Part shown: positions 3,640-22,643 of the stretch, one piece after another
Position numbering within the stretch: position 1 is the stretch's first letter
Layout of the letters: the number at the start of each line of letters is the position of its first letter
Source of the DNA: a virus
Direction: 5' to 3' (one strand)
Virus record (IMG/VR): IMGVR_UViG_3300030389_002782
Span: 3,680-50,469 of that record
DNA length: 46,790 bases
Position numbers and translations under genes: made by a program
Notes under the pieces: generated by a model
What the model saw: the letters and a program-made list of their open reading frames with translations, nothing else
What the model was told of the DNA's origin: nothing
The model's database searches: none

Positions 3640-4253
3640 TGGGAAGAGCAATAGATTTATTTGTTACATATCGATTTATCAAACTGTTAACCACACCGTT
3701 TGAAAAGTCTGAAGCGTTTAAGTTAGGCATAATCGATAAAGACGGAAACAGAATTAAAAAACCTAAATCAACAAAACCAGCAGTTGAACTTACCACATCT
3801 GAACAAAAGGCTGCATATACCATACTTCATAAATTAGTATTCAATATCAAAAAAATATTTTCCAAAGTGCCGGGTCTTAGAACAAAAGTAGGAACATATG
3901 CGGCCGCATTGTTTCTATTGAAAGATACATTCAAAGAGTCTATAGAAGACCCAGATATGTTTGAAAAAGAGTTTTTAAAGTATTTAAAAGAGGAAGGTGT
4001 AGAGTTTGATGATGAAATACAAGAAGAAGTTATTGGATTTGGTGAACAACTTCCTAAAGGTAGATATAGATTAAAACAAGATATACTAAATAAAGAAGAA
4101 GAAGAGTTAACTGCAAAGAAGGGTGACATCGTAATTGCATTTGATGATGAACCACCAGTCGATACAGTTTTAGGAGTAGAAATTTTTTCTGTGATACATG
4201 AAAAATCACAAGAGAAAATTTATGTAAGTTTAGAGGACTTAGAAGATGCTTAA
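3639..4253 (+). CDS. Conserved T4-like marine phage protein with hydrophobic helix, 204 aa
   Basis: The N-terminal half (VTYRFIKLLTTPFEKSEAFKLGIID, then LVFNIKKIF and LRTKVGTYAAALFLLKD) looks like a conserved family I associate with marine T4-like phages. The C-terminal half is acidic and beta-like, with a lysine-rich patch near residue 148 (LTAKKGDIVIAFDDEPP). One Ala-rich hydrophobic helix lies around residue 90. Position next to the capsid-type genes suggests a head or assembly protein; no enzymatic motif is visible. Confidence 0.65.
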   Translation: MGRAIDLFVTYRFIKLLTTPFEKSEAFKLGIIDKDGNRIKKPKSTKPAVELTTSEQKAAYTILHKLVFNIKKIFSKVPGLRTKVGTYAAALFLLKDTFKESIEDPDMFEKEFLKYLKEEGVEFDDEIQEEVIGFGEQLPKGRYRLKQDILNKEEEELTAKKGDIVIAFDDEPPVDTVLGVEIFSVIHEKSQEKIYVSLEDLEDA

Positions 4254-10948: not shown

Positions 10949-12708
10949 AGAAACAGTATTGTAATATCAAAATTGATACAGATCGAGATCAAAACTTTAC
11001 AGACCAAGCACAAAAACTTTTAAAAGATTATTATTGTCTAAGTGAAGAACCTTCCCCACAATTTGCACTTGCAAGAGCATCAAACGCTTACTCTTATGGT
11101 AACAAACAACTTGCACAAAGAATTTATGACTACGCCAGTCAAGGTTGGTTTATGTTTGCATCACCTGTATTATCAAACGCACCACTGCCAGGCAAAAAAC
11201 CAAAAGCATTACCTATATCTTGTTTCTTAACTTATGTGCCAGATACACTTGACGGATTAATTGATCATACATCTGAACTAAGATGGTTGTCAGTAAAGGG
11301 AGGTGGAGTTGGAGGTCATTGGTCAAATGTCCGTTCAGTATCAGATATCGCACCAGGCCCAATACCTTTTTTACACACAGTTGATGCTGATATGATTGCT
11401 TATAGACAAGGTAAAACTAGAAAAGGTAGTTATGCAGCTTACATAGATGTGTCACACCCAGATATTATGGAGTTCTTAACACTAAGAATACCGACAGGTG
11501 ATATAGGAAGAAAAACATTAAATTTACATAACGCAGTAAATGTGACTGATGAATTTATGAATGCAGTAAAAAAAGATTTAGAATGGAACTTAGTTGATCC
11601 TAATGATGGCACAATTAGAGATACAATGAAAGCAAGAAAACTTTGGGAACAAATCTTAGAAGTTAGATTTAGAACAGGTGAACCATATGTTAATTTTATA
11701 GATACTGCGAATAAGTATTTACCTAAACCATTAAAAGATAAAGGTTTAAAAATACATGGTTCTAATTTGTGTAACGAAATACATCTACCAACAAATGATG
11801 AGAGAACTGCCGTGTGTTGTTTGTCATCATTAAATTTAGAAAAGTATGATGATTTCAAAGATACAACAATTGTAAGAGACTTGATTACATTTTTAGATAA
11901 CGTATTACAGTTTTTTGTTGACAATGCAGGTGACGAAATAAGTCGTGCAAGATATTCAGCAACACAAGAGAGAAGTTTAGGACTTGGTGCAATGGGTTAT
12001 CATTCTTATTTACAAAAACATATGATACCTTTTGAACAATCTGGTCGTATCAATAAAGAGATTTTTTCATGGATGAGAAGTGAAGCAGATGCACAAACTT
12101 TGATACTTGGAAAAGAAAAAGGTGAGGCACCTGATATGAAGGGAACTGGCAGACGAAATGCTCATTGTCTTGCGATAGCACCTAACGCTAATTCATCAAT
12201 GATAGTTGGAACATCACCGTCAATTGAACCGAATAAAGCAAACGCATACACTCATAGAACTAGAGCAGGTTCACATTTAATTAAAAACAAGTATCTTGAA
12301 AAAATACTTGAAGAATACAAGATGAATACACCTGAAGTTTGGACGGGTATTGTTACGAATAATGGATCTGTTGATCATCTTGAATTTTTAAATGACGAGG
12401 AAAAAGAAGTATTTAAAACTGCTGTTGAATTAGATCAAATGAGACTTGTGGAACTTGGAGGTCAAAGACAAGTTTACTTAGATCAAGGACAATCATTAAA
12501 CTTATTCTTTCCAGCAGGTACTTCAAAAAAATATGTACAATCAGTGCATATGAGAGCATGGGAAACTGAATGTAAAGGATTATACTATTTAAGAACTGAA
12601 GTTTCAAAAAGAGCAGAGAATATATCTGAAAAAATTAAATTAGATAAATTAAAAGATTACTCAGACATTAAAAAAGACGAAGAAGAATGTCTGGCATGTC
12701 AAGCATAG
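10945..12708 (+). CDS. nrdA: Class I ribonucleotide reductase, catalytic subunit, without ATP-cone
   Basis: The enzyme reduces ribonucleoside diphosphates to deoxy forms for phage DNA synthesis, together with NrdB next door. Redox cysteines are present: Cys93 (ISCFLTY), Cys291/292 (AVCCLSSLNL) and the thiyl-radical Cys276 in SNLCNEI with Asn274 and Glu278. The phosphate-binding loop (IAPNANSSMIVGTSPSIEPN), the radical-relay pair Tyr547-Tyr548 and the C-terminal CLACQA shuttle cysteines complete the site. At 587 aa it is well below the 750-760 of E. coli and T4 NrdA: it starts directly at the catalytic core, so it probably lacks allosteric dATP control. Confidence 0.95.
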   Translation: MKKQYCNIKIDTDRDQNFTDQAQKLLKDYYCLSEEPSPQFALARASNAYSYGNKQLAQRIYDYASQGWFMFASPVLSNAPLPGKKPKALPISCFLTYVPDTLDGLIDHTSELRWLSVKGGGVGGHWSNVRSVSDIAPGPIPFLHTVDADMIAYRQGKTRKGSYAAYIDVSHPDIMEFLTLRIPTGDIGRKTLNLHNAVNVTDEFMNAVKKDLEWNLVDPNDGTIRDTMKARKLWEQILEVRFRTGEPYVNFIDTANKYLPKPLKDKGLKIHGSNLCNEIHLPTNDERTAVCCLSSLNLEKYDDFKDTTIVRDLITFLDNVLQFFVDNAGDEISRARYSATQERSLGLGAMGYHSYLQKHMIPFEQSGRINKEIFSWMRSEADAQTLILGKEKGEAPDMKGTGRRNAHCLAIAPNANSSMIVGTSPSIEPNKANAYTHRTRAGSHLIKNKYLEKILEEYKMNTPEVWTGIVTNNGSVDHLEFLNDEEKEVFKTAVELDQMRLVELGGQRQVYLDQGQSLNLFFPAGTSKKYVQSVHMRAWETECKGLYYLRTEVSKRAENISEKIKLDKLKDYSDIKKDEEECLACQA

Positions 12709-12718
12709 GAGAGAAAAA

Positions 12719-14047
12719 ATGGATGTACAAATCTATACAACACCAACTTGTGGTTATTGTTTAAATGCCAAAAATTGGTTTAAAGAACATGGTATTGAGT
12801 ATACCGAACACTCATTAGTAAACGATGAGGACAGACTAGAGTTTATTCAAAGAGTAAACAATGTTGAAGAAAAGTTAGGTAAAACAGGTGGAAGTATTAA
12901 ATCAGTTCCACAAATTTTTGTTAATGGTGAAAGAATTGGTGGATATACTCAATTGCTTGAAAGTTCAGAGAAGATTCTTAAAAAAAGAGGTGGTGGATTA
13001 TACAAGTTTAATGAAACATACAAACCATTTCACTACCCTTGGGCGGTCGACTTAGTACAGAAACATGAGAAAGTTCATTGGATCGAAGATGAAGTAGATT
13101 TATCAGAAGACGTGACAGATTGGAAAGGTGGTAAAATGACTGAGTTAGAAAAAGAATATGTGACTCACGTTCTTAGACTTTTCACACAATCTGATGTTGC
13201 TGTTGGGCAAAACTATTATGATCAGTTTCTTCCTAAGTTTAAAAACAATGAAGTAAGAAACATGTTAGGTTCTTTTGCATCAAGAGAAGGAATACATCAA
13301 AGAGCATACGCACTTTTAAATGAAACACTTGGATTACCAGATGAAGAGTTTCATGCATTTTTAGAGTATCAAGAGATGGCAGATAAAGTTGATTTCATGA
13401 TGAATTCAAATGTAAGTACAAAGAAAGGTATGGCTCTTGCACTTGCTAAATCAGTATTTAACGAGGGTATATCACTGTTTGCGTCTTTCGTGATGTTGTT
13501 AAACTTTCAAAGATTTGGAAAGATGAAAGGATCTGGTAAGATTGTCGAGTGGTCAGTTAGAGATGAGTCTATGCACGTTGAAGGTATCGCACAATTGTTT
13601 AGAGCATTTTGTGCTGAGAATGCAACAATAGTAGATAATCAATTGAAAAAAGAGATTTATGAAATGTCTAAAAAAGTTGTAGAACTTGAGGATAAGTTTA
13701 TTGATCTTGCATACGGCATGGGTGAACCAGAAGGATTAACAAAAGAAGATGTTAAACAATATATCAGATACATAGCAGATAGAAGACTACTACAACTAGG
13801 TTTGAAAACAAACTTTAAGGTAAAAGAAAATCCAATACCGTGGTTAGAGTGGATTCTAAACGCAGCCGATCATACAAACTTTTTTGAAAACAGAGTAACT
13901 GAATATGAAGTTGCAGGTTTGACAGGTGATTGGCAAGTTGCTTATGAAGACCCAGAGGCACATGTGAATTGTGATCACGATGAAGGAACATGTGTTTTAG
14001 AGGACACTAAAAAAGAACAAGCAATGGCACAAGGAAACTTATTTTAA
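12719..14047 (+). CDS. nrdB: Glutaredoxin fused to ribonucleotide reductase radical subunit
   Basis: Residues 1-85 are a glutaredoxin (TPTCGYC active site, Cys11/Cys14; cis-proline loop SVPQIF; GGYTQL glutathione site). Residues 100-430 are NrdB, with iron ligands Asp159, Glu190, His193, Glu249, Glu283 and His286, and the radical tyrosine Tyr197 (SREGIHQRAY). The glutaredoxin can therefore re-reduce NrdA from within the holoenzyme. SD AGGAGAG lies ten bases after nrdA. The last residues are acidic and Cys-containing (CDHDEGTC), unlike a standard NrdB tail. Grx-NrdB fusions are known from a few bacteria, one of which (Facklamia) has been characterised. Confidence 0.94.
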   Translation: MDVQIYTTPTCGYCLNAKNWFKEHGIEYTEHSLVNDEDRLEFIQRVNNVEEKLGKTGGSIKSVPQIFVNGERIGGYTQLLESSEKILKKRGGGLYKFNETYKPFHYPWAVDLVQKHEKVHWIEDEVDLSEDVTDWKGGKMTELEKEYVTHVLRLFTQSDVAVGQNYYDQFLPKFKNNEVRNMLGSFASREGIHQRAYALLNETLGLPDEEFHAFLEYQEMADKVDFMMNSNVSTKKGMALALAKSVFNEGISLFASFVMLLNFQRFGKMKGSGKIVEWSVRDESMHVEGIAQLFRAFCAENATIVDNQLKKEIYEMSKKVVELEDKFIDLAYGMGEPEGLTKEDVKQYIRYIADRRLLQLGLKTNFKVKENPIPWLEWILNAADHTNFFENRVTEYEVAGLTGDWQVAYEDPEAHVNCDHDEGTCVLEDTKKEQAMAQGNLF

Positions 14048-14202
14048 TGAGAAAAAAAATGTTATGTGAGGAGTGTGAAGCATCATACGAAATCAAACAT
14101 GACATGGATACAGATTATTTTGTGATTGAGCACTGCCCATTTTGCGGTGCTCATCAAGAGTCTGACGAATATGTTTCGTATGAAGAGGAATATGATGAAT
14201 GA
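14047..14202 (+). CDS. Small zinc-ribbon protein, 51 aa
   Basis: The ATG overlaps the nrdB stop (TAATG). Two CxxC pairs (MLCEECEA at Cys7/Cys10 and HCPFCGA at Cys30/Cys33) predict a one-zinc ribbon; the tail is acidic (SYEEEYDE). It overlaps the following nuclease gene by four bases. Small zinc ribbons of this kind occur widely in phage replication clusters; partner unknown. Confidence 0.7.
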   Translation: MRKKMLCEECEASYEIKHDMDTDYFVIEHCPFCGAHQESDEYVSYEEEYDE

Positions 14203-14537
14203 AAACACAATCGGCCAAAGCAAAAGGTCGTAGATTACAACAATGGTTTCGTGATTTACTGATTGAAAAACTTAACATACACACTGAAGATATAGAGTCA
14301 AGGAGTATGGGAGCAGGTGGCGAAGATTTAATTATGTCAAGATCTGCAAGGACAAAGTTTCCATACTCTATAGAATGTAAAAATCAAGAAAAAGTGAATG
14401 TTTGGGAATCATATAAACAGTCAGTCGAAAACTCAAAAGATTATGAACCAATAGTCGTAATTAAAAAAAATAATCATAAACCTTTAGTTATAGTTGATGC
14501 AGATTACTTTGTGAGATTACATGATGAAAAACAGTGA
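14199..14537 (+). CDS. PD-(D/E)XK nuclease-like protein, 112 aa
   Basis: A basic helix (KGRRLQQWFRDLLIEKL) precedes a GAGGEDLIMS strand and a PYSIECKNQEK strand, giving the D...ExK core of small PD-(D/E)XK enzymes. The last strand, EPIVVIKKNNHKPLVIVD, fits the fold of Hjc- or VRR-type nucleases. Size and position in a replication operon agree with a junction-resolving or repair nuclease, but the substrate is inferred. Confidence 0.75.
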   Translation: MKTQSAKAKGRRLQQWFRDLLIEKLNIHTEDIESRSMGAGGEDLIMSRSARTKFPYSIECKNQEKVNVWESYKQSVENSKDYEPIVVIKKNNHKPLVIVDADYFVRLHDEKQ

Positions 14538-14691
14538 ACAATTAGACAGAATAGAAAAAAGACTAGACGCATTAGAAAAAAAGTTAGATATACTAACGAA
14601 AACCCTTGACAAACACATTAAGTTCATAGATAATACTTATGAAGGATTACGAAATCCAATTGACAGTGTGAAGAAGTGGTTAACTAAATGA
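14521..14691 (+). CDS. Small coiled-coil protein, 56 aa
   Basis: The ATG (14521, or the next codon) overlaps the end of the nuclease gene, and the stop overlaps the next start (ATGA). Residues 6-38 form a coiled coil (LDRIEKRLDALEKKLDILTKTL), ending in a Trp-containing tail (VKKWLTK). A sigma-70-like promoter lies within the gene at 14601-14634. Function unknown. Confidence 0.65.
   Translation: MMKNSEQLDRIEKRLDALEKKLDILTKTLDKHIKFIDNTYEGLRNPIDSVKKWLTK
14601..14634 (+). promoter_or_regulatory. Sigma-70-like promoter for the sugar/curli block
   Basis: AACCCTTGACA (14601-14611), 17 bases, then GATAAT (14629-14634). The 11-base AACCCTTGACA occurs again at 22856 and 26265 in promoter position, which supports a real element. 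Transcription would start about 50 bases before the cytidylyltransferase gene and could run through the curli genes, since no terminator is seen before 22.8 kb. Confidence 0.6.
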
Positions 14692-15098
14692 GAATAGGAT
14701 TTACTTGTAGTAGTTTCGATTTGTTACATGCAGGTCATACTTTAATGTTAGAAGAAGCAAGATCACAATGTGATTATCTAATTGTTGGTATGCAACTAGA
14801 TCCCACAGTTGATAGACCAAATAAAAACAAACCAATTCAAACAGTTGTTGAGAGATACTTGCAATTACGAGGTTCTAAGTATGTAGATGAAATAATTCCA
14901 TATTCTACTGAACAAGACTTAGAAGATATATTGTCAAGTATGCATATAGATGTTCGTATAGTTGGAATTGAATATATGGGTAGAGAATTTACAGGTAAAG
15001 ATATTTGTAATCAAAGAAATATAGAAATATATTATAACGAAAGAGTTCATAGATTCAGTTCGAGTGACAGTGTAAAAAGGATATTAGATAATGAATAA
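14688..15098 (+). CDS. Cytidylyltransferase-like nucleotidyltransferase, 136 aa
   Basis: The nucleotide-binding HxGH motif is at residues 14-17 (FDLLHAGHT) and a late RFSSSDSVKRI segment supplies the second phosphate-binding motif, as in glycerol-3-phosphate cytidylyltransferase (TagD) and related enzymes. Length is that of the single-domain enzymes (about 130). It would activate a phosphorylated polyol or sugar with CTP. The next genes, a deacetylase and a glycosyltransferase-like protein, suggest a small glycan-modifying pathway; the substrate cannot be read from sequence. Confidence 0.85.
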   Translation: MRIGFTCSSFDLLHAGHTLMLEEARSQCDYLIVGMQLDPTVDRPNKNKPIQTVVERYLQLRGSKYVDEIIPYSTEQDLEDILSSMHIDVRIVGIEYMGREFTGKDICNQRNIEIYYNERVHRFSSSDSVKRILDNE

Positions 15099-15672
15099 AG
15101 TATTAGTGTTGTCAGCACACCCAGATGATTTAGAGATATCATGTGGTGGAACAGTTGCAAAGTTTGTTGATGAAGGTAACGTAGTAGATAATATTATATT
15201 GTGTTCAAATGTTAAACATAAAAAATATGTTCCAGCATCATCAAAAATTTTAGGATATAATCCAATATATTTAAATCATAGAGATGAATCACCAACAAGT
15301 AAAGTCATCGCAGAGATAGAAAAGAAAGTTGATATAGAATCATATGATTTATTAATTACACATTGGAGTGAAGATTGGCATCAAGATCACAGATTTTGTC
15401 ATGAATTAGGTAATTCACTAAGAAGAAAACAACAACTTGATGTATGGTATATGAATGCATTTCCATATTGTCAAAAATATAAGAGTTTTGAAGCAAACTT
15501 ATTTGTGGATATTACAAAGTACAAATATAAGAAACTAGACGCAATGTCACTATATGATAATGTGCCAGATGAATATTACATAGGAATCGATAGTATGTCT
15601 AGATATCGAGGATCATTTGTTCATGTAAAACACGCAGAGGTATTTAAAGTTGATACACTTTTGTATGGTTAA
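15091..15672 (+). CDS. PIG-L/LmbE-type N-acetylglucosaminyl deacetylase-like protein, 193 aa
   Basis: AHPDDLEISCGG (His10, Asp12, Asp13) is the metal-binding and catalytic signature of the PIG-L/LmbE family. WHQDHR (His97, Asp99, His100) supplies the second motif. These zinc enzymes remove acetyl groups from N-acetylglucosamine-type sugars. Length is typical of the short bacterial members. It overlaps both neighbours by eight bases and is probably translated with them. Target glycan unknown: host envelope or phage modification are both possible. Confidence 0.87.
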   Translation: MNKVLVLSAHPDDLEISCGGTVAKFVDEGNVVDNIILCSNVKHKKYVPASSKILGYNPIYLNHRDESPTSKVIAEIEKKVDIESYDLLITHWSEDWHQDHRFCHELGNSLRRKQQLDVWYMNAFPYCQKYKSFEANLFVDITKYKYKKLDAMSLYDNVPDEYYIGIDSMSRYRGSFVHVKHAEVFKVDTLLYG

Positions 15673-16369
15673 GTATGGAGACTCTTTCAAGGGTTTCAAT
15701 ACACGAAAATTATTCATAGATTTATACGAACCAATAAAAAAATATTATGCATTTTTCAGACCAATGAAAGAGTGTACTTTTCATTTACTAACTGATAAAC
15801 CAATATATGAACCGTTTATTAAAAACTATGTTTACAAACAATCTGATATAGACATACACGAACACTGGGCAAAGACATACTTTTTTGATCCTAATTTTAT
15901 ACAAGCAAAAAAAGATGATGAAACAATCATCATGGATATTGACATGTTTTGGATGAACAATCCAAGTGAAGTTATTACTTACCCAGTTGAAAGTGGCCAG
16001 TTTGTTTCAATACCAAGATGGTGGGCATTAGATCAAGTGGAAGAGTATCCTATAAGTGGAAACTTTTACAAATTTAAATCACATGACTTTCCACATGTTG
16101 CTTCAATTTATAGAAAACATCATGCATATTTTAGAAAACATTATTATGAAAAGGGTTTAGTTGAAGAACCAAGACTAGGTGAACAACATTTTGTTTATGA
16201 CATGATGAAACATGCTGATATAAAGTTACAACCTGCTGAGTGGTGTATGAAAGAGTCACCTGATGATCCTCAAAGATATATACATGCGTTTGAAGAATAT
16301 ACAGGTAAAAGTTATTATGATTGTTATGACAAAGCAATTTGGACACATGTTAGGAAATTAAATAAATAA
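15665..16369 (+). CDS. Putative glycosyltransferase, 234 aa
   Basis: The start is taken as ATG 15665 (MVKYGDSF); a TTG 15 bases upstream is less likely. VKYGDSFKGF at the start and IIMDIDMFWMNNP, a DxD-type metal-nucleotide sugar motif near residue 96, followed by an FVSIPRWWALDQ strand and GEQHFVYD, resemble GT-A fold transferases (GT8-like order). It ends the cytidylyltransferase-deacetylase trio. The fold call is moderate and the substrate unknown. Confidence 0.6.
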   Translation: MVKYGDSFKGFNTRKLFIDLYEPIKKYYAFFRPMKECTFHLLTDKPIYEPFIKNYVYKQSDIDIHEHWAKTYFFDPNFIQAKKDDETIIMDIDMFWMNNPSEVITYPVESGQFVSIPRWWALDQVEEYPISGNFYKFKSHDFPHVASIYRKHHAYFRKHYYEKGLVEEPRLGEQHFVYDMMKHADIKLQPAEWCMKESPDDPQRYIHAFEEYTGKSYYDCYDKAIWTHVRKLNK

Positions 16370-16373
16370 TAAT

Positions 16374-16625
16374 ATGGACTTAGTAGAACTTTTAAATCAA
16401 TATGGTTTTGCAACTATGGCTGCAATTGCAATGGGTTGGTTTATTTTTTTCATATACAACTACATAACAACTCAAGTAAAAGTAAAACTATCAGAAATGA
16501 ATTCTGTATTGATAGGTCTGATTGATCGAATAAGAATGTTAGATAATGATCTGATTAGATTAAGGTCAAAACTTAATACAGTATTAACACTTCGAGAGAT
16601 AGAAAAACAAAAGAAGGATAAATAA
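16374..16625 (+). CDS. Membrane-anchored coiled-coil protein, paralogue of the 17459 gene, 83 aa
   Basis: One membrane span (FATMAAIAMGWFIFFIYNYI, about 12-31) leads to a coiled coil (SVLIGLIDRIRMLDNDLIRLRSKLNTVL). The protein at 17459 has the same layout and aligned residues (AMGxFIFxIxxYI, then DxRIxxxxxDxIxL), so the two are paralogues flanking csgF. They begin the secretion cassette and may be inner-membrane partners of it; that is inferred from position only. Confidence 0.65.
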   Translation: MDLVELLNQYGFATMAAIAMGWFIFFIYNYITTQVKVKLSEMNSVLIGLIDRIRMLDNDLIRLRSKLNTVLTLREIEKQKKDK

Positions 16626-16629
16626 TTAC

Positions 16630-17001
16630 ATGAACAAATTAATTTTTATATTACTATTATTATTCAGCACATCAGCATGGGGTGCTGCGTGGAATGAAAA
16701 ACCAATCATGTGTGCAAGTTATGAAGAGACATTTTCTGCAATCGAGGCAAAAGGTGAAAGGTTAGTGTGGACTGCTGTTCAGTTTACTAAAGTAAAAGGA
16801 CCAGACAACACTTACAGAGAACACCCAGAGATGTTAGTATCTGCCAAATATATAAATGAGTTTACAAGAACATACACATTATTAGAGTATCATCCTAAGT
16901 ATCTAGTGTATTGTGTTATTAGTTGGGGAACAGACTTGTTATTACAAGATGAACTTGATCCTAACACTTACTATAGACCAGACAGAGACGTATTTAAATG
17001 A
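16630..17001 (+). CDS. Secreted protein of unknown function in the curli cassette, 123 aa
   Basis: A clear signal peptide (MNKLIFILLLLFSTSAWGAA, cleavage near residue 18) predicts export. The mature part has two cysteines (MCAS and VYCV) that may pair in the periplasm, and a KYLVYCVISWGTDLLLQDE C-terminus. It overlaps csgF by four bases. CsgE would be expected in a full curli system, but I see no CsgE signature here, so an equivalent chaperone role is speculation. Confidence 0.65.
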   Translation: MNKLIFILLLLFSTSAWGAAWNEKPIMCASYEETFSAIEAKGERLVWTAVQFTKVKGPDNTYREHPEMLVSAKYINEFTRTYTLLEYHPKYLVYCVISWGTDLLLQDELDPNTYYRPDRDVFK

Positions 17002-17459
17002 GAATAATATTAACACTTTTATTTCTATCTAGTTCAGTATTTGCTGAACAATTAGTTCAAGAATTTGGTAACCCTGCATTTAGTGGTAATGGATACTCAC
17101 AACATGTATTATCTGTAGATCAGTTACAACAACAAAGAAAACAAAAGAAGATTGATGATGAAAAATCTGCAATAGCAGCTGCTGAGAGGATAGAAAAGAA
17201 TAAAACTGTTAATAAATTTATTTCAAATGTTGAATCAAGGATATACGCAAACTTGTCTAAACAATTAGTTGATAATATGTTTGGTACAAGTTGTGACACA
17301 ACTACAACAACATGTCCTACAAGTGGCACTGCTGAGATAGAAGGTGCAACAATTTACTGGGTAAAAGACACTTCTACAGACATAATTACACTTACTGTCA
17401 CCGCTGATGACGGTACAGTCACTACAATTACTGTGCCTGTGGGGGATTTTGTCTTTTAA
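16998..17459 (+). CDS. csgF: Curli assembly factor CsgF-like protein, 153 aa
   Basis: After a signal peptide ending SSVFA, the mature N-terminus has QLVQEFGNPAFSGNGYSQHVLSV. This fits CsgF, whose first 35 residues (FxNPxFxGN...L...A..Q) insert into the CsgG pore. The C-terminal half (IYWVKDTSTDIITLTVTADDGTVTTITV) matches the beta-rich CsgF tail domain. In E. coli, CsgF caps the outer side of CsgG and links the nucleator to the cell. csgG follows 280 bases later in the same operon, which strengthens the call. A Thr/Cys-rich insertion near residue 95 is unusual. Confidence 0.85.
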   Translation: MRIILTLLFLSSSVFAEQLVQEFGNPAFSGNGYSQHVLSVDQLQQQRKQKKIDDEKSAIAAAERIEKNKTVNKFISNVESRIYANLSKQLVDNMFGTSCDTTTTTCPTSGTAEIEGATIYWVKDTSTDIITLTVTADDGTVTTITVPVGDFVF

Positions 17460-17740
17460 TGGACTTATTTTTTACAATTTTAAAGGAGTTTGGACTACCT
17501 GTGGCGGCAACACTTGCTATGGGGTTCTTTATATTCCTAATATTAAAGTATATACTTGAATCTGTTATAGGTCAAGTTAGAGGAATGCATGGAATTATTA
17601 TGTCATTAGATAACAGAATAAAAAATATGAATAATGATATGATAAAATTAGATATTCAAATATCTGATGCATTGAATTTAAGACAAGATGAAGAAAGAAT
17701 AAGTAGGGCAGATGGCAAAGAAGACGCAAGGAGAGATTAG
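17459..17740 (+). CDS. Membrane-anchored coiled-coil protein, second copy, 93 aa
   Basis: This is the paralogue of the 16374 gene: a span (LPVAATLAMGFFIFLILKYIL, about 13-33), a short MHGII turn and a coiled coil (LDNRIKNMNNDMIKLDIQISDAL), with a charged end. It lies between csgF and csgG, overlapping both stops (TAATG and TAGTG). Placement inside the secretion cassette suggests a linked role in the inner membrane, not demonstrated in any system I know. Confidence 0.65.
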   Translation: MDLFFTILKEFGLPVAATLAMGFFIFLILKYILESVIGQVRGMHGIIMSLDNRIKNMNNDMIKLDIQISDALNLRQDEERISRADGKEDARRD

Positions 17741-18681
17741 TGTTAAAGATAATTTTAGTAGCATTGTTGGGAACGGCTTTATTCAGTTGTGCTGCAAAGT
17801 ATCAAGATTTTGACACATACAAGGGCGATATGCCTTATATCGAAGGCACACCTACATTAGAATTACTTGAACAATTACCAGACTTAGATCAAGATAAAAT
17901 TACAATCGCAGTATATAAGTTTACAGATCAAACAGGTCAAAGAAAACCAAGTTCTAAATTTTCACAATTATCAACAGCAGTGACTCAAGGTTCAGATGCA
18001 TTTGTAATTAACGCACTAAAATCAGTATCAAAAGGTGATTGGTTTACTGTGGTTGAGAGAAATAGTTTAGATAATCTAGTAAAGGAAAGACAACTTATTA
18101 GATCAACTAGAGAGTTATATGATGGTGAATCTGAAATTGATAATGTTTTAAAACCACTTGTGTTTGCAGGTTTAATTATTGAAGGTGGTATAGTAGGATA
18201 TGATAGTAACACTGCATCAGGTGGTGCAGGTGCAAGATATTTTGGGATTGGTATGAATGAACAATATAGAGTTGATCAAGTTACCATTTCAATGAGATTA
18301 ATTTCAGTGCAAACAGGTGAGATTTTAATTACAACTAATGTTACTAAGACTATTGCAAGTTATAGTGGAGGTGGAGATGTGTTTACTTTTTTAGATATGG
18401 GTACAAAAGCATTAGAAATAGAAACAGGTGTGGCAGTTAACGAACCCGTAAACTATGCAATCCGAACTGCGATTGAATATGCCGTTTTACAAATGATAAA
18501 AGACGGTGAGAGAAAAGAATATTGGAAATACAAAGAAGTGCCAAACAATCAAAAAGTAGAGGAATTACCACCGATACCAATCGAAGATTTACCCATTCCT
18601 AAGATTCTAGAAGAGGAAATGGTGATACCCGAAGAAATCATAGAAATAAATGATTTTGAGGATCATCCTTTACATAAATAA
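17740..18681 (+). CDS. csgG: Curli secretion channel CsgG-like lipoprotein, 313 aa
   Basis: A GTG start follows SD AAGGAGAG. A lipobox (LFSCAA, Cys17) predicts a lipidated outer-membrane protein. The body matches CsgG: KITIAVYKFTDQTGQRKPSS, then GSDAFVINAL, WFTVVERNSLDNLVKERQLIR, a GLIIEGGIVGYDSNTASGG strand and RVDQVTISMRLISVQTGEIL leading to the second hairpin. CsgG forms a nonameric pore that exports curli subunits. A Pro- and acid-rich tail (about 270-313) extends past the usual end. It is preceded by csgF and followed by curlin-repeat genes. Confidence 0.92.
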   Translation: MLKIILVALLGTALFSCAAKYQDFDTYKGDMPYIEGTPTLELLEQLPDLDQDKITIAVYKFTDQTGQRKPSSKFSQLSTAVTQGSDAFVINALKSVSKGDWFTVVERNSLDNLVKERQLIRSTRELYDGESEIDNVLKPLVFAGLIIEGGIVGYDSNTASGGAGARYFGIGMNEQYRVDQVTISMRLISVQTGEILITTNVTKTIASYSGGGDVFTFLDMGTKALEIETGVAVNEPVNYAIRTAIEYAVLQMIKDGERKEYWKYKEVPNNQKVEELPPIPIEDLPIPKILEEEMVIPEEIIEINDFEDHPLHK

Positions 18682-18704
18682 TAATATCAGAGAGGGGCGA
18701 AGCT

Positions 18705-19391
18705 ATGTTAAAAATAACAGGTTATATTATGTTTGTTATGTTAAGTTTTGTGCCTTTATATGCTAATGACATATATGTAACACAGTCTGGTGCAAGTTTA
18801 GACTTAGATATAACACAAGACGGATCGAACAACACTGTTGGTAATTCAACAACTGCATCTTCATCTACAGGTGCATCTACTACACTTGATATTGATCAAG
18901 TAGGTAACTCAAACGTGATCACATATCAGATCAACGGTGCGACTTATACTGGTACGATTAATCTAACAGGTAACTCAAATGATGTAGATTTAAATTGTGA
19001 CAGTACAGGCAACAATAGTTCTTGTGGAACGGTAACTGCAAACATTACTTGGACAGGTAATTCTAATGACATCGATTTAGATATTGGTGAGACAAGTGAT
19101 GCATCAAACTCAACTGTAAATATCACAGGTCAATCTGGTTCTGATAGCAACGTGGTAGCAGCCACAATTGACGGAACAAGTGCGATATTAACATTGACTG
19201 TAAATGGCGATACAAATAATTATCTTATTGATATAGACGGAGACGGTGATGTCAACGGACATACGTTGATTCATACTCACACAGGTAGTATCGCAGACGT
19301 AGATATAACACAGTCAGGTGTCAATGATAACTATATTTCTTTAACAACATCAGGTGATAATGCAGACATTGATATTTCACAAACCGACTAA
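18705..19391 (+). CDS. Curlin-repeat protein (CsgA-like fibre subunit candidate), 228 aa
   Basis: A signal peptide (MLKITGYIMFVMLSFVPLYA) precedes about eight loosely spaced curlin-type units. Examples are DITQDGSNNTV, DIDQVGNSNVI, NLTGNSNDVDL, TWTGNSNDIDL and DITQSGVNDNYI, with the alternating strand and the Q/T-x-G-x-x-N turn that stacks curli amyloid. Strong Asp/Asn/Ser/Thr content and few cysteines fit an exported amyloid subunit. SD GAGGGG. It directly follows csgG, the export pore for such proteins. Repeats are more degenerate than E. coli CsgA. Confidence 0.8.
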   Translation: MLKITGYIMFVMLSFVPLYANDIYVTQSGASLDLDITQDGSNNTVGNSTTASSSTGASTTLDIDQVGNSNVITYQINGATYTGTINLTGNSNDVDLNCDSTGNNSSCGTVTANITWTGNSNDIDLDIGETSDASNSTVNITGQSGSDSNVVAATIDGTSAILTLTVNGDTNNYLIDIDGDGDVNGHTLIHTHTGSIADVDITQSGVNDNYISLTTSGDNADIDISQTD

Positions 19392-20481
19392 GTTTATCGT
19401 AGGAATATTCCTTTTTTTCAGTACAACACTTTATGGATCATCCATAGGCGATGTTGTATTGAAAGAAGGAAATTCAATCATTGAAAGATTAGATAAAACT
19501 GAAGTAGAAGTAGAAAAAGACCTAGATGTTTTCTCATATGATACAGTAAAAACAGGCAAAGGTAAACTTGCAATAGAATTTTTAGATGATACAAGAGTTG
19601 ATGTAACATCTCATTCAAAACTAATAATAGATGAATTTGTATATGATCCAAATGCAGGCACAGGTAAATTATCACTAAAAGCTGCACTTGGAACAGTCAG
19701 ATATGCAAGTGGGCAAATCGCAAAGAACTCAGCACAAAATATAAAAATAAAAACACCAACTGCAACTGTTTCAGTGAGAGGAACAGATTTTGCTATGACA
19801 GTTGATGAACTTGGATCATCTACTATTATATTACTACCTAGTTGCGATACGAATGGATATTGTTTTGTGGGAGAGATATCAGTCGAAAGTGACGCAGGTC
19901 AAGTAATATTAAATCAGGCATTTCAAGCAACACAAGTCGATGTGCCAGAAAATAGACCAGTAAGCCCTGTCATAGTAGAACTTGACGAGTCATTGATTAA
20001 TAATTTATTAATTATAAGACGACCTCCTAAGTTAGAGGATCAAATAGAATATGAAAGAAGTCTAAAAGTGATTGCAAATGCGTTAGACATAGACTTTTTA
20101 AAGTTTGATGAATTAGATATTGACCTTTTATCAGATGAAGAAGATGAATATGCATCACGATTAGACATAGATTTCTTAGAACAAAACTTTTTAGTTGACA
20201 TATTAGAAGAATTAAATAAACAATTGGCCTTGCAAATGAGGAGTGAATTTGATAAGATAGATGATAAAAGAAAACTTGGTTTAGATGAATTTGGAGTATT
20301 ACTTATCGAAGAGGATGGTAATTGGATTTGGACAAGAGAAGATGCCGCAGGTAATAATATTGTACTAAAGTTAAATCAAGAGAACGGATATATAATAAAT
20401 GCACAACAACAAGAATTCGAAATTAGAGATTACAGATTAGGAGAGGGAAGTAATGAAATTAATATTATTCAAAATCAGTAG
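19360..20481 (+). CDS. FecR-domain exported protein, 373 aa
   Basis: ATG 19360 is chosen (a GTG six bases upstream is possible); it overlaps the curlin gene by 32 bases. A signal peptide (FIVGIFLFFSTTLYG) leads into a FecR domain: GDVVLKEGN, a DTVKTGKGKLAIEFLDDTRVDV strand pair, and the conserved TPTATVSVRGTDFAM. FecR domains sense or bind at the periplasm and often pair with CHASE2 cyclases. The C-terminal 160 residues are acidic and helical (LDIDFLKFDELDIDLL). It overlaps the small curlin gene downstream. It probably belongs with the cyclase two genes on. Confidence 0.83.
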   Translation: MQTLIFHKPTKFIVGIFLFFSTTLYGSSIGDVVLKEGNSIIERLDKTEVEVEKDLDVFSYDTVKTGKGKLAIEFLDDTRVDVTSHSKLIIDEFVYDPNAGTGKLSLKAALGTVRYASGQIAKNSAQNIKIKTPTATVSVRGTDFAMTVDELGSSTIILLPSCDTNGYCFVGEISVESDAGQVILNQAFQATQVDVPENRPVSPVIVELDESLINNLLIIRRPPKLEDQIEYERSLKVIANALDIDFLKFDELDIDLLSDEEDEYASRLDIDFLEQNFLVDILEELNKQLALQMRSEFDKIDDKRKLGLDEFGVLLIEEDGNWIWTREDAAGNNIVLKLNQENGYIINAQQQEFEIRDYRLGEGSNEINIIQNQ

Positions 20482-20788
20482 TATTTTATTTTTAACATTT
20501 AGTGTCTATGCAAATAATTTTGATTTGACTGTCACAAGTAGTTCAAGTTATTCTATTGATGTGACACAAGATGGTGAAGATAATGATATTGATTTCGATA
20601 TGTTAAATATGAATTCAGGTGATATAAATTTTTCACAGATAGGAAACGACAATACAATTGATATTGATGTTGACGGAAGAACAAGTAATGGTAGTTCTAT
20701 TACTGTAAATCAATCAGGCAATAATAAAACTTATACTGGCAATCTTTGGTGTGGTCACACTTATTGTACATTAACAGTAAATCAATAA
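20453..20788 (+). CDS. Short curlin-repeat protein (CsgB-like nucleator candidate), 111 aa
   Basis: A signal peptide (LILFKISSILFLTFSVYA) is followed by three curlin-type units: DVTQDGEDNDI, NFSQIGNDNTI and TVNQSGNNKTY. A Cys-containing end (WCGHTYC) is followed by LTVNQ at the C-terminus. Two curlin genes, one long and one short, match the major/minor (CsgA/CsgB) arrangement, so this may nucleate fibres. It ends one base before the cyclase gene. Small size and missing outer repeats could also mean a degenerate copy. Confidence 0.72.
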   Translation: MKLILFKISSILFLTFSVYANNFDLTVTSSSSYSIDVTQDGEDNDIDFDMLNMNSGDINFSQIGNDNTIDIDVDGRTSNGSSITVNQSGNNKTYTGNLWCGHTYCTLTVNQ

Positions 20789-20789
20789 T

Positions 20790-22643
20790 ATGAAAAAAAT
20801 TTTTACTCATTGGTCTTTTGCCTTTGTCACTTTATTTTTTTTAATTTGGGTAGGAGTTAAAGATCCACAAGTAAAAGAAATACTTAGATTAAAATCCTTT
20901 GATCTAATGTTACAATCACAAGATAAACAAATATCTCAAGACATTGTTATAGTTACGATAGATGAAAAGTCTATAGAAAAATTTGGGCAATACCCATGGT
21001 CAAGAGATACTTACGCTGATATTATAGATTACCTACGAATAAATGATGCAGGTGTTATAGTATTACCGATATTATTTTCTGAAGAGGATAGATTTGGTGG
21101 TGATGAAATATTTGCAGATACGCTTAAAGATAATTTTGTTGTGGTTGGACAAGTTGGTTCAAATCAAACTTCGAACAATGGTTATCCTAGAGGAGTTGCA
21201 AAAATAGGTAATCCTTTAGATTGGTTATTTGAGTGGCGTGGAATGGTTGGCCCAATATCAGAAATCGGCGATAGTGCCGCAGGTGTTGGAGTTTTAAACA
21301 CATCACCTGAAATAGATGGTGTTGTTAGAAGAATGCCTCTACTAATGAAAATAGGTGAAGATGTATATCCGTCTATGGCAATAGAAGTTATTAGAACTGC
21401 TACAGGTGATCCTAGTTATCAAGTAAAATCTGGTGATGCTGGAATCATTGCAATGCGAGTGCCTGGGTTTGCAACAATAAAGACAGATGCAAATGCTAGA
21501 ATTTGGTTATCATGGAATACAGCATATCCAACTATTTCAGTCGCAGATTTAGGAAGTGAAGAATTAAGATTTACAGGTAAAACTGTTATAGTGGCTGTAA
21601 CTGCTGAAGGATTGAGTAATGTAATAGCAACACCAATAGGAAGTCAATATGATTATGTTGCAATCGCATCTACTTTACAAACAGTTATAGATGGTGTCAA
21701 TATTGAAAGAACAGACATATTGCCACTTATTGAATTATCACTTGCATTCTTAGTTGGTATTGCAATCATTATACTGACAAGATTTACACCATATTTTGTT
21801 GTAGGATTATCATTAGTATTTGGAAGTCTTGGTTCTCTTGTATATACAAACTTATTATTTCAACAAAAACTAATTTTATTTGATGTCACATGGATTTTAG
21901 TTGTATTATTATTTGTTGGTTTACATAGTATATTTAATCGTTTTATTTTAGAATTTAGATTAAAACAACAAATTAGAAAACAATTTGAAACATATCTTGA
22001 TCCTAGACAAGTTGCCATATTACAAAAAGATCCTAGTAAATTAAAACTTGGTGGCGAAAGAAAAGAGATGTCATTCTTGTTTATGGATATCGTAGGGTTT
22101 ACACCGATATCAGAATACTATAAAAACAATAATGACCCAGAGGGATTAGTAGAAGTTATCAATGATTACTTAAATCGCATGACAAAAATAGTTTTGGATA
22201 ATGGTGGAACAGTTGACAAATACATGGGTGATTGTATTATGGCATTTTGGAATGCACCATTAGATTGTCCTAATCATGCTGACATGGCAGTCAAAACAAG
22301 TATTGAATGTGCAAAAGAAACAGAAAAATTAAAACAAGAGTTTTTAGATAAGGGTTTACCAGAGATTAATATTGGATCAGGTGTCAATACTGGCACATGT
22401 ATAGTTGGTAACATGGGAAGTGATACTAGATTTGATTATTCAGTAATCGGTGACGCAGTAAACTTGGCCGCAAGATTAGAGGCATCCACAAGAAATTACA
22501 AAGATAAAAAGGGAAAAGTTTTGACTACATTATACTCATCTTACACAAAAGATCAATTGACTAATATTGAGTCAGTCAAAGTTGATAAAATTAAAGTAAA
22601 AGGTAAAGACGAGTTGATAACAATATACAAACCAAAGGAGTAA
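20790..22643 (+). CDS. CHASE2-domain class III adenylate/guanylate cyclase, 617 aa
   Basis: An N-terminal span is followed by a CHASE2 sensor (about 30-300, with IVTIDEKSIEKFGQYPWSRD and GVGVLNTSPEIDGVVRRMPL), three spans (about 308-380) and a class III cyclase domain (about 420-600). The catalytic set looks complete: Asp433 (FMDIVGFT), Lys477/Asp481 (VDKYMGD), Asp549 (FDYSVIGDAVNLAARLE) with Asn558 and Arg562. Lys477 and Asp549 favour ATP over GTP. It would convert an extracytoplasmic cue into cAMP. It adjoins a FecR protein, a common bacterial pairing, and curli genes. It is unusual cargo for a phage. Confidence 0.92.
   Translation: MKKIFTHWSFAFVTLFFLIWVGVKDPQVKEILRLKSFDLMLQSQDKQISQDIVIVTIDEKSIEKFGQYPWSRDTYADIIDYLRINDAGVIVLPILFSEEDRFGGDEIFADTLKDNFVVVGQVGSNQTSNNGYPRGVAKIGNPLDWLFEWRGMVGPISEIGDSAAGVGVLNTSPEIDGVVRRMPLLMKIGEDVYPSMAIEVIRTATGDPSYQVKSGDAGIIAMRVPGFATIKTDANARIWLSWNTAYPTISVADLGSEELRFTGKTVIVAVTAEGLSNVIATPIGSQYDYVAIASTLQTVIDGVNIERTDILPLIELSLAFLVGIAIIILTRFTPYFVVGLSLVFGSLGSLVYTNLLFQQKLILFDVTWILVVLLFVGLHSIFNRFILEFRLKQQIRKQFETYLDPRQVAILQKDPSKLKLGGERKEMSFLFMDIVGFTPISEYYKNNNDPEGLVEVINDYLNRMTKIVLDNGGTVDKYMGDCIMAFWNAPLDCPNHADMAVKTSIECAKETEKLKQEFLDKGLPEINIGSGVNTGTCIVGNMGSDTRFDYSVIGDAVNLAARLEASTRNYKDKKGKVLTTLYSSYTKDQLTNIESVKVDKIKVKGKDELITIYKPKE

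Follow-up and report, generated by a model that had tools for sequence, protein, structure and literature searches.

A putative curli-type secretion cassette with a constant and a variable curlin in a T4-like marine phage

Curli-type genes in marine phages were described in 2020 and 2022 (PMC7029224, PMC9004378, PMC9599517). csgF and csgG, along with "sibling capture", were reported from pelagimyophages (PMC7029224), while a full module with FecR, a cyclase and both curlins, expressed in ocean metatranscriptomes, was reported from HTVC023P-type podophages and from myophages in the order CsgF, CsgG, CsgA/B, FecR, second CsgA/B and adenylate cyclase (PMC9599517). The methylophage Melnitz (MZ577097) has the same order, and its record annotates two curlin-repeat proteins. 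Here we analyse a window of 46,790 nucleotides (positions 3,680 to 50,469 of the 50,469-base IMG/VR virus record IMGVR_UViG_3300030389_002782), in which nine co-directional open reading frames (ORFs) with short overlaps span positions 16374-22643 of the + strand (Table 1). They encode homologues of CsgF and CsgG, two curlin-like proteins (curlin 1 and curlin 2), a FecR-domain protein, a CHASE2-domain cyclase and three further proteins, T1, T2 and S123. The Pelagibacter phage HTVC008M (KC465899; PMC7029224) shares the order T-T-CsgF-CsgG-curlin-FecR-curlin-cyclase, with 70% identity in CsgG and 61% in FecR, whereas the window has T proteins flanking CsgF on both sides, contains S123 in addition, and encodes a CsgG with a longer tail as well as a short curlin 2 that has no head. 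Compared to the curli genes of E. coli (csgBAC/csgDEFG), the phage cassette has CsgG and CsgF homologues and curlin repeats in common but is without a recognised CsgE, CsgC or CsgD and adds FecR and a cyclase. An earlier sequence-only reading of the window was right in outline; the novelty that it implied is not supported, as the cassette was already in GenBank (HTVC008M) and in the three papers above. Compared with these papers, we propose as new, at least in part, the relabelling of the T proteins, the split into a constant and a variable curlin with lectin-like heads, and a bacterial operon in Hyphomonas.

We consider it somewhat probable that the genes form a functional cassette for type VIII (curli-type) secretion and that the fibres which it exports remodel the infected cell's surface. 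A profile of the phage CsgG aligns to solved CsgG in the PDB along its length (E 3.5e-66), which supports the CsgG identity predicted from sequence, and the lipobox Cys17 is kept in 100/101 relatives. CsgF carries the N-terminal motif FxNPxFxG in 77/95 sequences and is 37% identical to its Hyphomonas counterpart. Of the features expected of type VIII secretion, a CsgG lipoprotein channel, a CsgF partner and an exported curlin-repeat subunit are recognised, and the claim that a T4-like phage carries both the export machine and its cargo is supported by homology of CsgG and CsgF together with the curlin-repeat genes. Neither of the two refuting outcomes that the sequence-only reading had named was borne out. 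In the window the CsgG homologue also has an extra C-terminal Pro/Glu-rich tail of ~45 amino acids (aa; window 18540-18681), shared by its nearest relatives and not by HTVC008M or Melnitz. Remote CsgG-like proteins, ~30% identical, are found in large-genome phages of Brevundimonas (ON529851-ON529860).

The cassette is widespread and its composition is stable. Viral contigs were scanned twice on the basis of CsgG and additionally for S123 and the cyclase, yielding 104 loci with a distinct CsgG, in which the dominant order was T-T-F-G-c-R-c-A (F, CsgF; G, CsgG; c, curlin; R, FecR; A, cyclase), along with truncated forms. The survey of related phages that the sequence-only reading had proposed shows the order recurring in ~100 distinct marine phage contigs. 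Where the downstream part was complete (40 loci), curlin 1 and FecR were present in 40/40 and curlin 2 and the cyclase in 39/40, so that the grouping is not due to chance. CsgF was present in all 72 upstream-complete loci, with two T genes beside csgFG in 57. The ratio of non-synonymous to synonymous substitution rates (dN/dS) in close orthologous pairs was ~0.04-0.16 for T, CsgF, CsgG, curlin 1, FecR and the cyclase (~0.05-0.10 for curlin 1) as a crude Nei-Gojobori estimate with partly saturated synonymous sites; where T1 was paired with T2 in some relatives, the values are spuriously high. The cassette genes, except curlin 2, are under purifying selection.

The two curlins evolve very differently. 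The Curlin_rpt family was recognised at the same position in 11/20 orthologues of the first curlin (best 3.9e-10) and in 24/37 of the second (best 1.5e-16), and these clear matches make the window's own weak curlin calls firm. N-termini of both proteins look signal-like by eye, and the AlphaFold model of curlin 1 is all-beta with a predicted local distance difference test score (pLDDT) of 86.6. Across 48 pairs of loci with 70-85% identity in CsgG, which are not independent of each other, the median identity was 0.81 for curlin 1 and 0.34 for curlin 2; the corresponding medians were 0.78 for the cyclase, 0.76 for FecR and 0.75 for CsgF, with CsgF, CsgG, FecR and the cyclase all within 0.74-0.78. 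In the most distant pairs curlin 1 drops under CsgG (0.46 vs. 0.52). Curlin 1 is thus conserved about as well as CsgG and curlin 2 is hypervariable. The length is mostly 225-244 aa in curlin 1 (a few near 375) and 111-497 aa in curlin 2. A PA14 head was found on 7/37 curlin 2 proteins (best 7.7e-14) and GLEYA on 3/37; in HTVC008M, the 441-aa curlin 2 combines PA14 (2.7e-6) with curlin repeats (5.2e-8). A search confined to the papers available to us found none joining curlin, the PA14 domain and phage.

The FecR protein, which probably starts at ATG 19360 (the mechanical ORF begins at GTG 19354), has an N-terminus that reads as a signal peptide with the FecR domain directly after it. The FecR domain is shared with the ferric-citrate anti-sigma regulator FecR, which has an N-terminal anti-sigma region in the cytoplasm and FecI and FecA as partners. 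The structural model is of modest quality (pLDDT 73.9, the middle part being unreliable) and matches the PupR cell-surface signalling domain (2.4e-4). A second match, to a "cell surface anchoring domain" of 76 residues, reaches 5.8e-4 with a template modelling score of 0.78 by target. No FecI or FecA was found by a Pfam scan limited to the nine cassette proteins. FecR ends (window 20400-20481) in a curlin-repeat-like stretch, LGxxxNxIxIxQ, present in 75/92 sequences and in 0/2282 other ORFs; this motif was written after viewing the sequences and also matched 0/253 curlin ORFs, and curlin profiles match the FecR ending in few sequences only. In the cyclase D433, K477 and D481 are invariant (94/94), and D549, N558 and R562 are kept in 86, 86 and 92 of the 94 sequences, respectively. 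We take these residues to be the two metal Asp, the Lys/Asp adenine pair and the Asn/Arg transition-state pair of the class III family, and the protein is accordingly predicted from its residues to be a class III adenylate cyclase. The position of Asn558 is Ser in 6/94 relatives, and the Melnitz cyclase (12505-14556 of its locus), which has 47% identity overall, diverges in its catalytic half. Pairs of FecR and CHASE2 sensors are known from a bacterial biofilm-regulating operon (PMC5192318), and CHASE2 cyclases of S. meliloti respond downstream of an outer-membrane barrel (PMC13001267). By analogy, the phage FecR and cyclase are probably an envelope-to-cytoplasm sensor pair tied to fibre export.

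From this we infer how export, fibre assembly, adhesion and sensing, as well as their timing, might proceed. The CsgG lipoprotein would form a channel in the outer membrane with CsgF capping it on the outside, and both curlins would cross the inner membrane via Sec and exit through CsgG. Curlin 1 would be the conserved core of the fibre, while curlin 2 would be a rapidly changing second subunit that acts as adhesive tip or decoration, because in relatives its N-terminus can bear a lectin-like (PA14/GLEYA) or other head. Such fibres could tether neighbouring cells or particles and thereby increase the contact of released phages with new hosts, with FecR and the CHASE2 cyclase sensing the envelope in connection with export. 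It is quite possible, if short of probable, that the cassette in this way encodes a two-part fibre, constant in its core curlin 1 and diversifying by exchange of heads in the adhesin curlin 2, i.e., a target-diversifying amyloid adhesin displayed on cells that have no curli and coupled to a FecR/CHASE2 cyclase sensor. The fibre display, clumping and blocking of other phages suggested by the sequence-only reading would likewise be conceivable outcomes.

Several observations weigh against this interpretation. The Curlin_rpt scores in the window itself are weak, both being below the Pfam cut-off, and a fold search with the curlin 1 model against the PDB gave no significant match, the E. coli CsgA fibril with its beta-solenoid fold having E 0.8. 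The window encodes the short form of curlin 2 without lectin head, and no clumping was observed in Melnitz culture (PMC9004378). As the sequence-only reading had said, CsgE, CsgC and CsgD have no Pfam match among the nine cassette proteins; CsgE, a periplasmic factor of the system, helps curli formation but is dispensable according to PMC7029224, so that this does not exclude membership. Finally, six phage records, fragments among them, yielded no recognisable cAMP receptor or cyclic nucleotide monophosphate (cNMP)-binding domain, and a cNMP-binding domain was found in only 5/61 SAR11-group genomes, which leaves the output of the cyclase unexplained.

Instead of gathering new hosts, the fibres could serve superinfection exclusion, covering or masking the infected cell and keeping competing phages out, as proposed in PMC9599517, and possible glycan genes upstream of the cassette (PIG-L deacetylase, cytidylyltransferase-like) would fit a surface-remodelling island. 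We regard this as rather unlikely, as a hypervariable and sometimes lectin-headed curlin 2 suits target binding more than masking, although an arms race with phages could drive the variation too. Adhesion or gathering is favoured over masking, and both are favoured over a role of CsgG in lysis or uptake. A role of CsgG as a pore by which larger nutrients or cofactors are taken up in the course of infection was put forward in PMC7029224 and PMC9599517 and agrees with the lack of a recognised gating CsgE; it is improbable in our view, as it leaves unexplained why CsgF, two curlins, FecR and the cyclase stand in order in 39-40/40 cassettes.

A pinholin or secretin timing lysis, for which CsgG would have been re-purposed, was argued for Melnitz from structure models, gene neighbourhood and the absence of csgA/csgB as considered in that paper (PMC9004378), and the small T proteins with a single transmembrane segment and a weak resemblance to YvrJ might be added in its favour. 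We find it very improbable: the Melnitz record does annotate two curlin-repeat genes and hence a cargo, the conservation of curlin 1 is close to that of CsgG, and the CsgG lipobox indicates an outer-membrane location, while the inner membrane is the site of action of pinholins. The constant/variable split of the curlins likewise argues against a lysis pore. The sequence-only reading had offered export of fibres and an envelope pore side by side; conservation of the cargo weakens the case for the latter. That the segment is an assembly chimera or bacterial contamination, for which the bacterial type of the cassette genes could speak, is of negligible probability and was ruled out: the isolate genomes HTVC008M and Melnitz are syntenic with it, ~100 distinct marine phage contigs share its order, base composition is alike in cassette and flanks and across the join, and phage genes lie on both sides.

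If the fibres of the proposed exporter are made, widespread ocean viruses give curli-less SAR11-type cells a new adhesive surface, with consequences for the encounter rates of phages, for aggregation in dilute water and for the exchange of genes. Because of the split between a constant and a variable curlin, the idea of adhesion can be tested directly, and the corrected "histidine kinase" label and the bacterial operon with FecR and cyclase, both described below, alter the assumed regulation and origin of the system.

A histidine kinase was placed before CsgF in the module of PMC9599517, whereas myophages have T there and not a kinase; from matching position and copy number, T appears to hold the published "histidine kinase" position. 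T1 and T2 are paralogues with, by eye, one N-terminal transmembrane segment followed by a coiled coil. A histidine kinase identity was rejected, as the proteins are 83-93 aa long, no Pfam kinase family matched in 20 members and no phospho-accepting His is conserved: the T1 copy in the window contains no histidine, 58/143 family sequences have none and the best His column reaches 28%. Resemblance to YvrJ/BhlA holin-like proteins was limited to weak YvrJ matches in 3/20 members (best 0.19). The T proteins may act as inner-membrane helpers. S123 has no Pfam or PHROG family; as a substitute for CsgE it was rejected, being near CsgG in only 2/72 upstream-complete cassettes. On these counts S123 is a passenger, and T, with two genes in 57/72, is common but not universal.

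The host of the window is inferred from its relatives to be of the SAR11 group. A survey of SAR11 genomes for the same order, likewise proposed by the sequence-only reading, found the SAR11 group to be without curli of its own: among the 151 genomes in the group to which a Pelagibacter bin belongs, a full CsgG was present in that bin only, with two remote matches besides, and it sits on a 3-kb contig and is indistinguishable from a phage CsgG in the tree. Contigs L198, L231 and L269 (also L197 and L199) from genome bins labelled Pelagibacter, Sphingobacteriales and Rhodobacteraceae carry the phage-type cassette. CsgG of L198 groups with a phage CsgG at zero distance, T4-like genes for polymerase, helicase and UvsX lie on L231 and L269, and bacterial matches of this type look like phage contigs inside genome bins.

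The operon of Hyphomonas sp. TMED17 is of a different kind. On a chromosomal contig of 705 kb, csgF and csgG are followed by the gene of a single curlin of 504 aa and then by fecR and the gene of a CHASE2 cyclase, in the order of the window, with no T genes and with metabolic genes of the bacterium on either side. The curlin has no Pfam match at 0.01 and was labelled by means of the phage curlin profile. FecR and cyclase are stated to be absent from bacterial type VIII secretion operons in PMC9599517, and the Hyphomonas operon is therefore a counter-example. Among 299 genomes of the order and 385 of the class of Hyphomonas, a phage-type FecR of near full length was found in the same genome only, other matches listed being mainly to the FecR domain. 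Hyphomonas is placed on the side of the phages in the tree of CsgG, but its branch is long and weakly supported, so that the tree does not fix the donor.

Table 1. Genes of the cassette, with window coordinates and best profile matches
Feature	Coordinates	Strand	Match
T1, 83-aa small membrane protein	16374..16625	+	phrog_18771 1.2e-31
S123, 123-aa secreted-looking passenger protein	16630..17001	+	Pfam/PHROG family none
CsgF homologue, outer-surface partner of CsgG	16998..17459	+	Pfam CsgF 3.3e-14
T2, 93-aa T1 paralogue	17459..17740	+	phrog_18771 7.9e-34
CsgG homologue, predicted outer-membrane lipoprotein channel	17740..18681	+	Pfam CsgG 1.2e-51
Curlin 1, constant subunit, exported curlin-repeat protein of 228 aa rich in N/G/S/T/D	18705..19391	+	Curlin_rpt 0.0061
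FecR-domain protein, apparent signal peptide	19360..20481	+	Pfam FecR 3.7e-9
Curlin 2, 111-aa exported curlin-like protein, hypervariable subunit (short form)	20453..20788	+	Curlin_rpt 0.036
CHASE2-domain class III adenylate cyclase (predicted)	20790..22643	+	CHASE2 6.1e-43, Guanylate_cyc 1e-17

All genes named by the sequence-only reading were found in place on one strand, and its list omitted T1, T2 and S123. The T4-like context that it described is borne out by phage genes on both sides of the cassette, which include NrdA/NrdB, RNase H, an exonuclease, a gp32-like single-stranded DNA-binding protein and baseplate/tail genes. The T4-type late promoter TATAAATA occurs 6 times with 8.7 expected, which is uninformative. 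A transfer-messenger RNA (tmRNA) at window 34059-34361 matches both alpha_tmRNA and tmRNA_permuted. Directly upstream of the cassette, in the same variable region, 14688-16369 encode the cytidylyltransferase-like protein, the PIG-L deacetylase and a 239-aa protein, possibly a glycan-modifying set.

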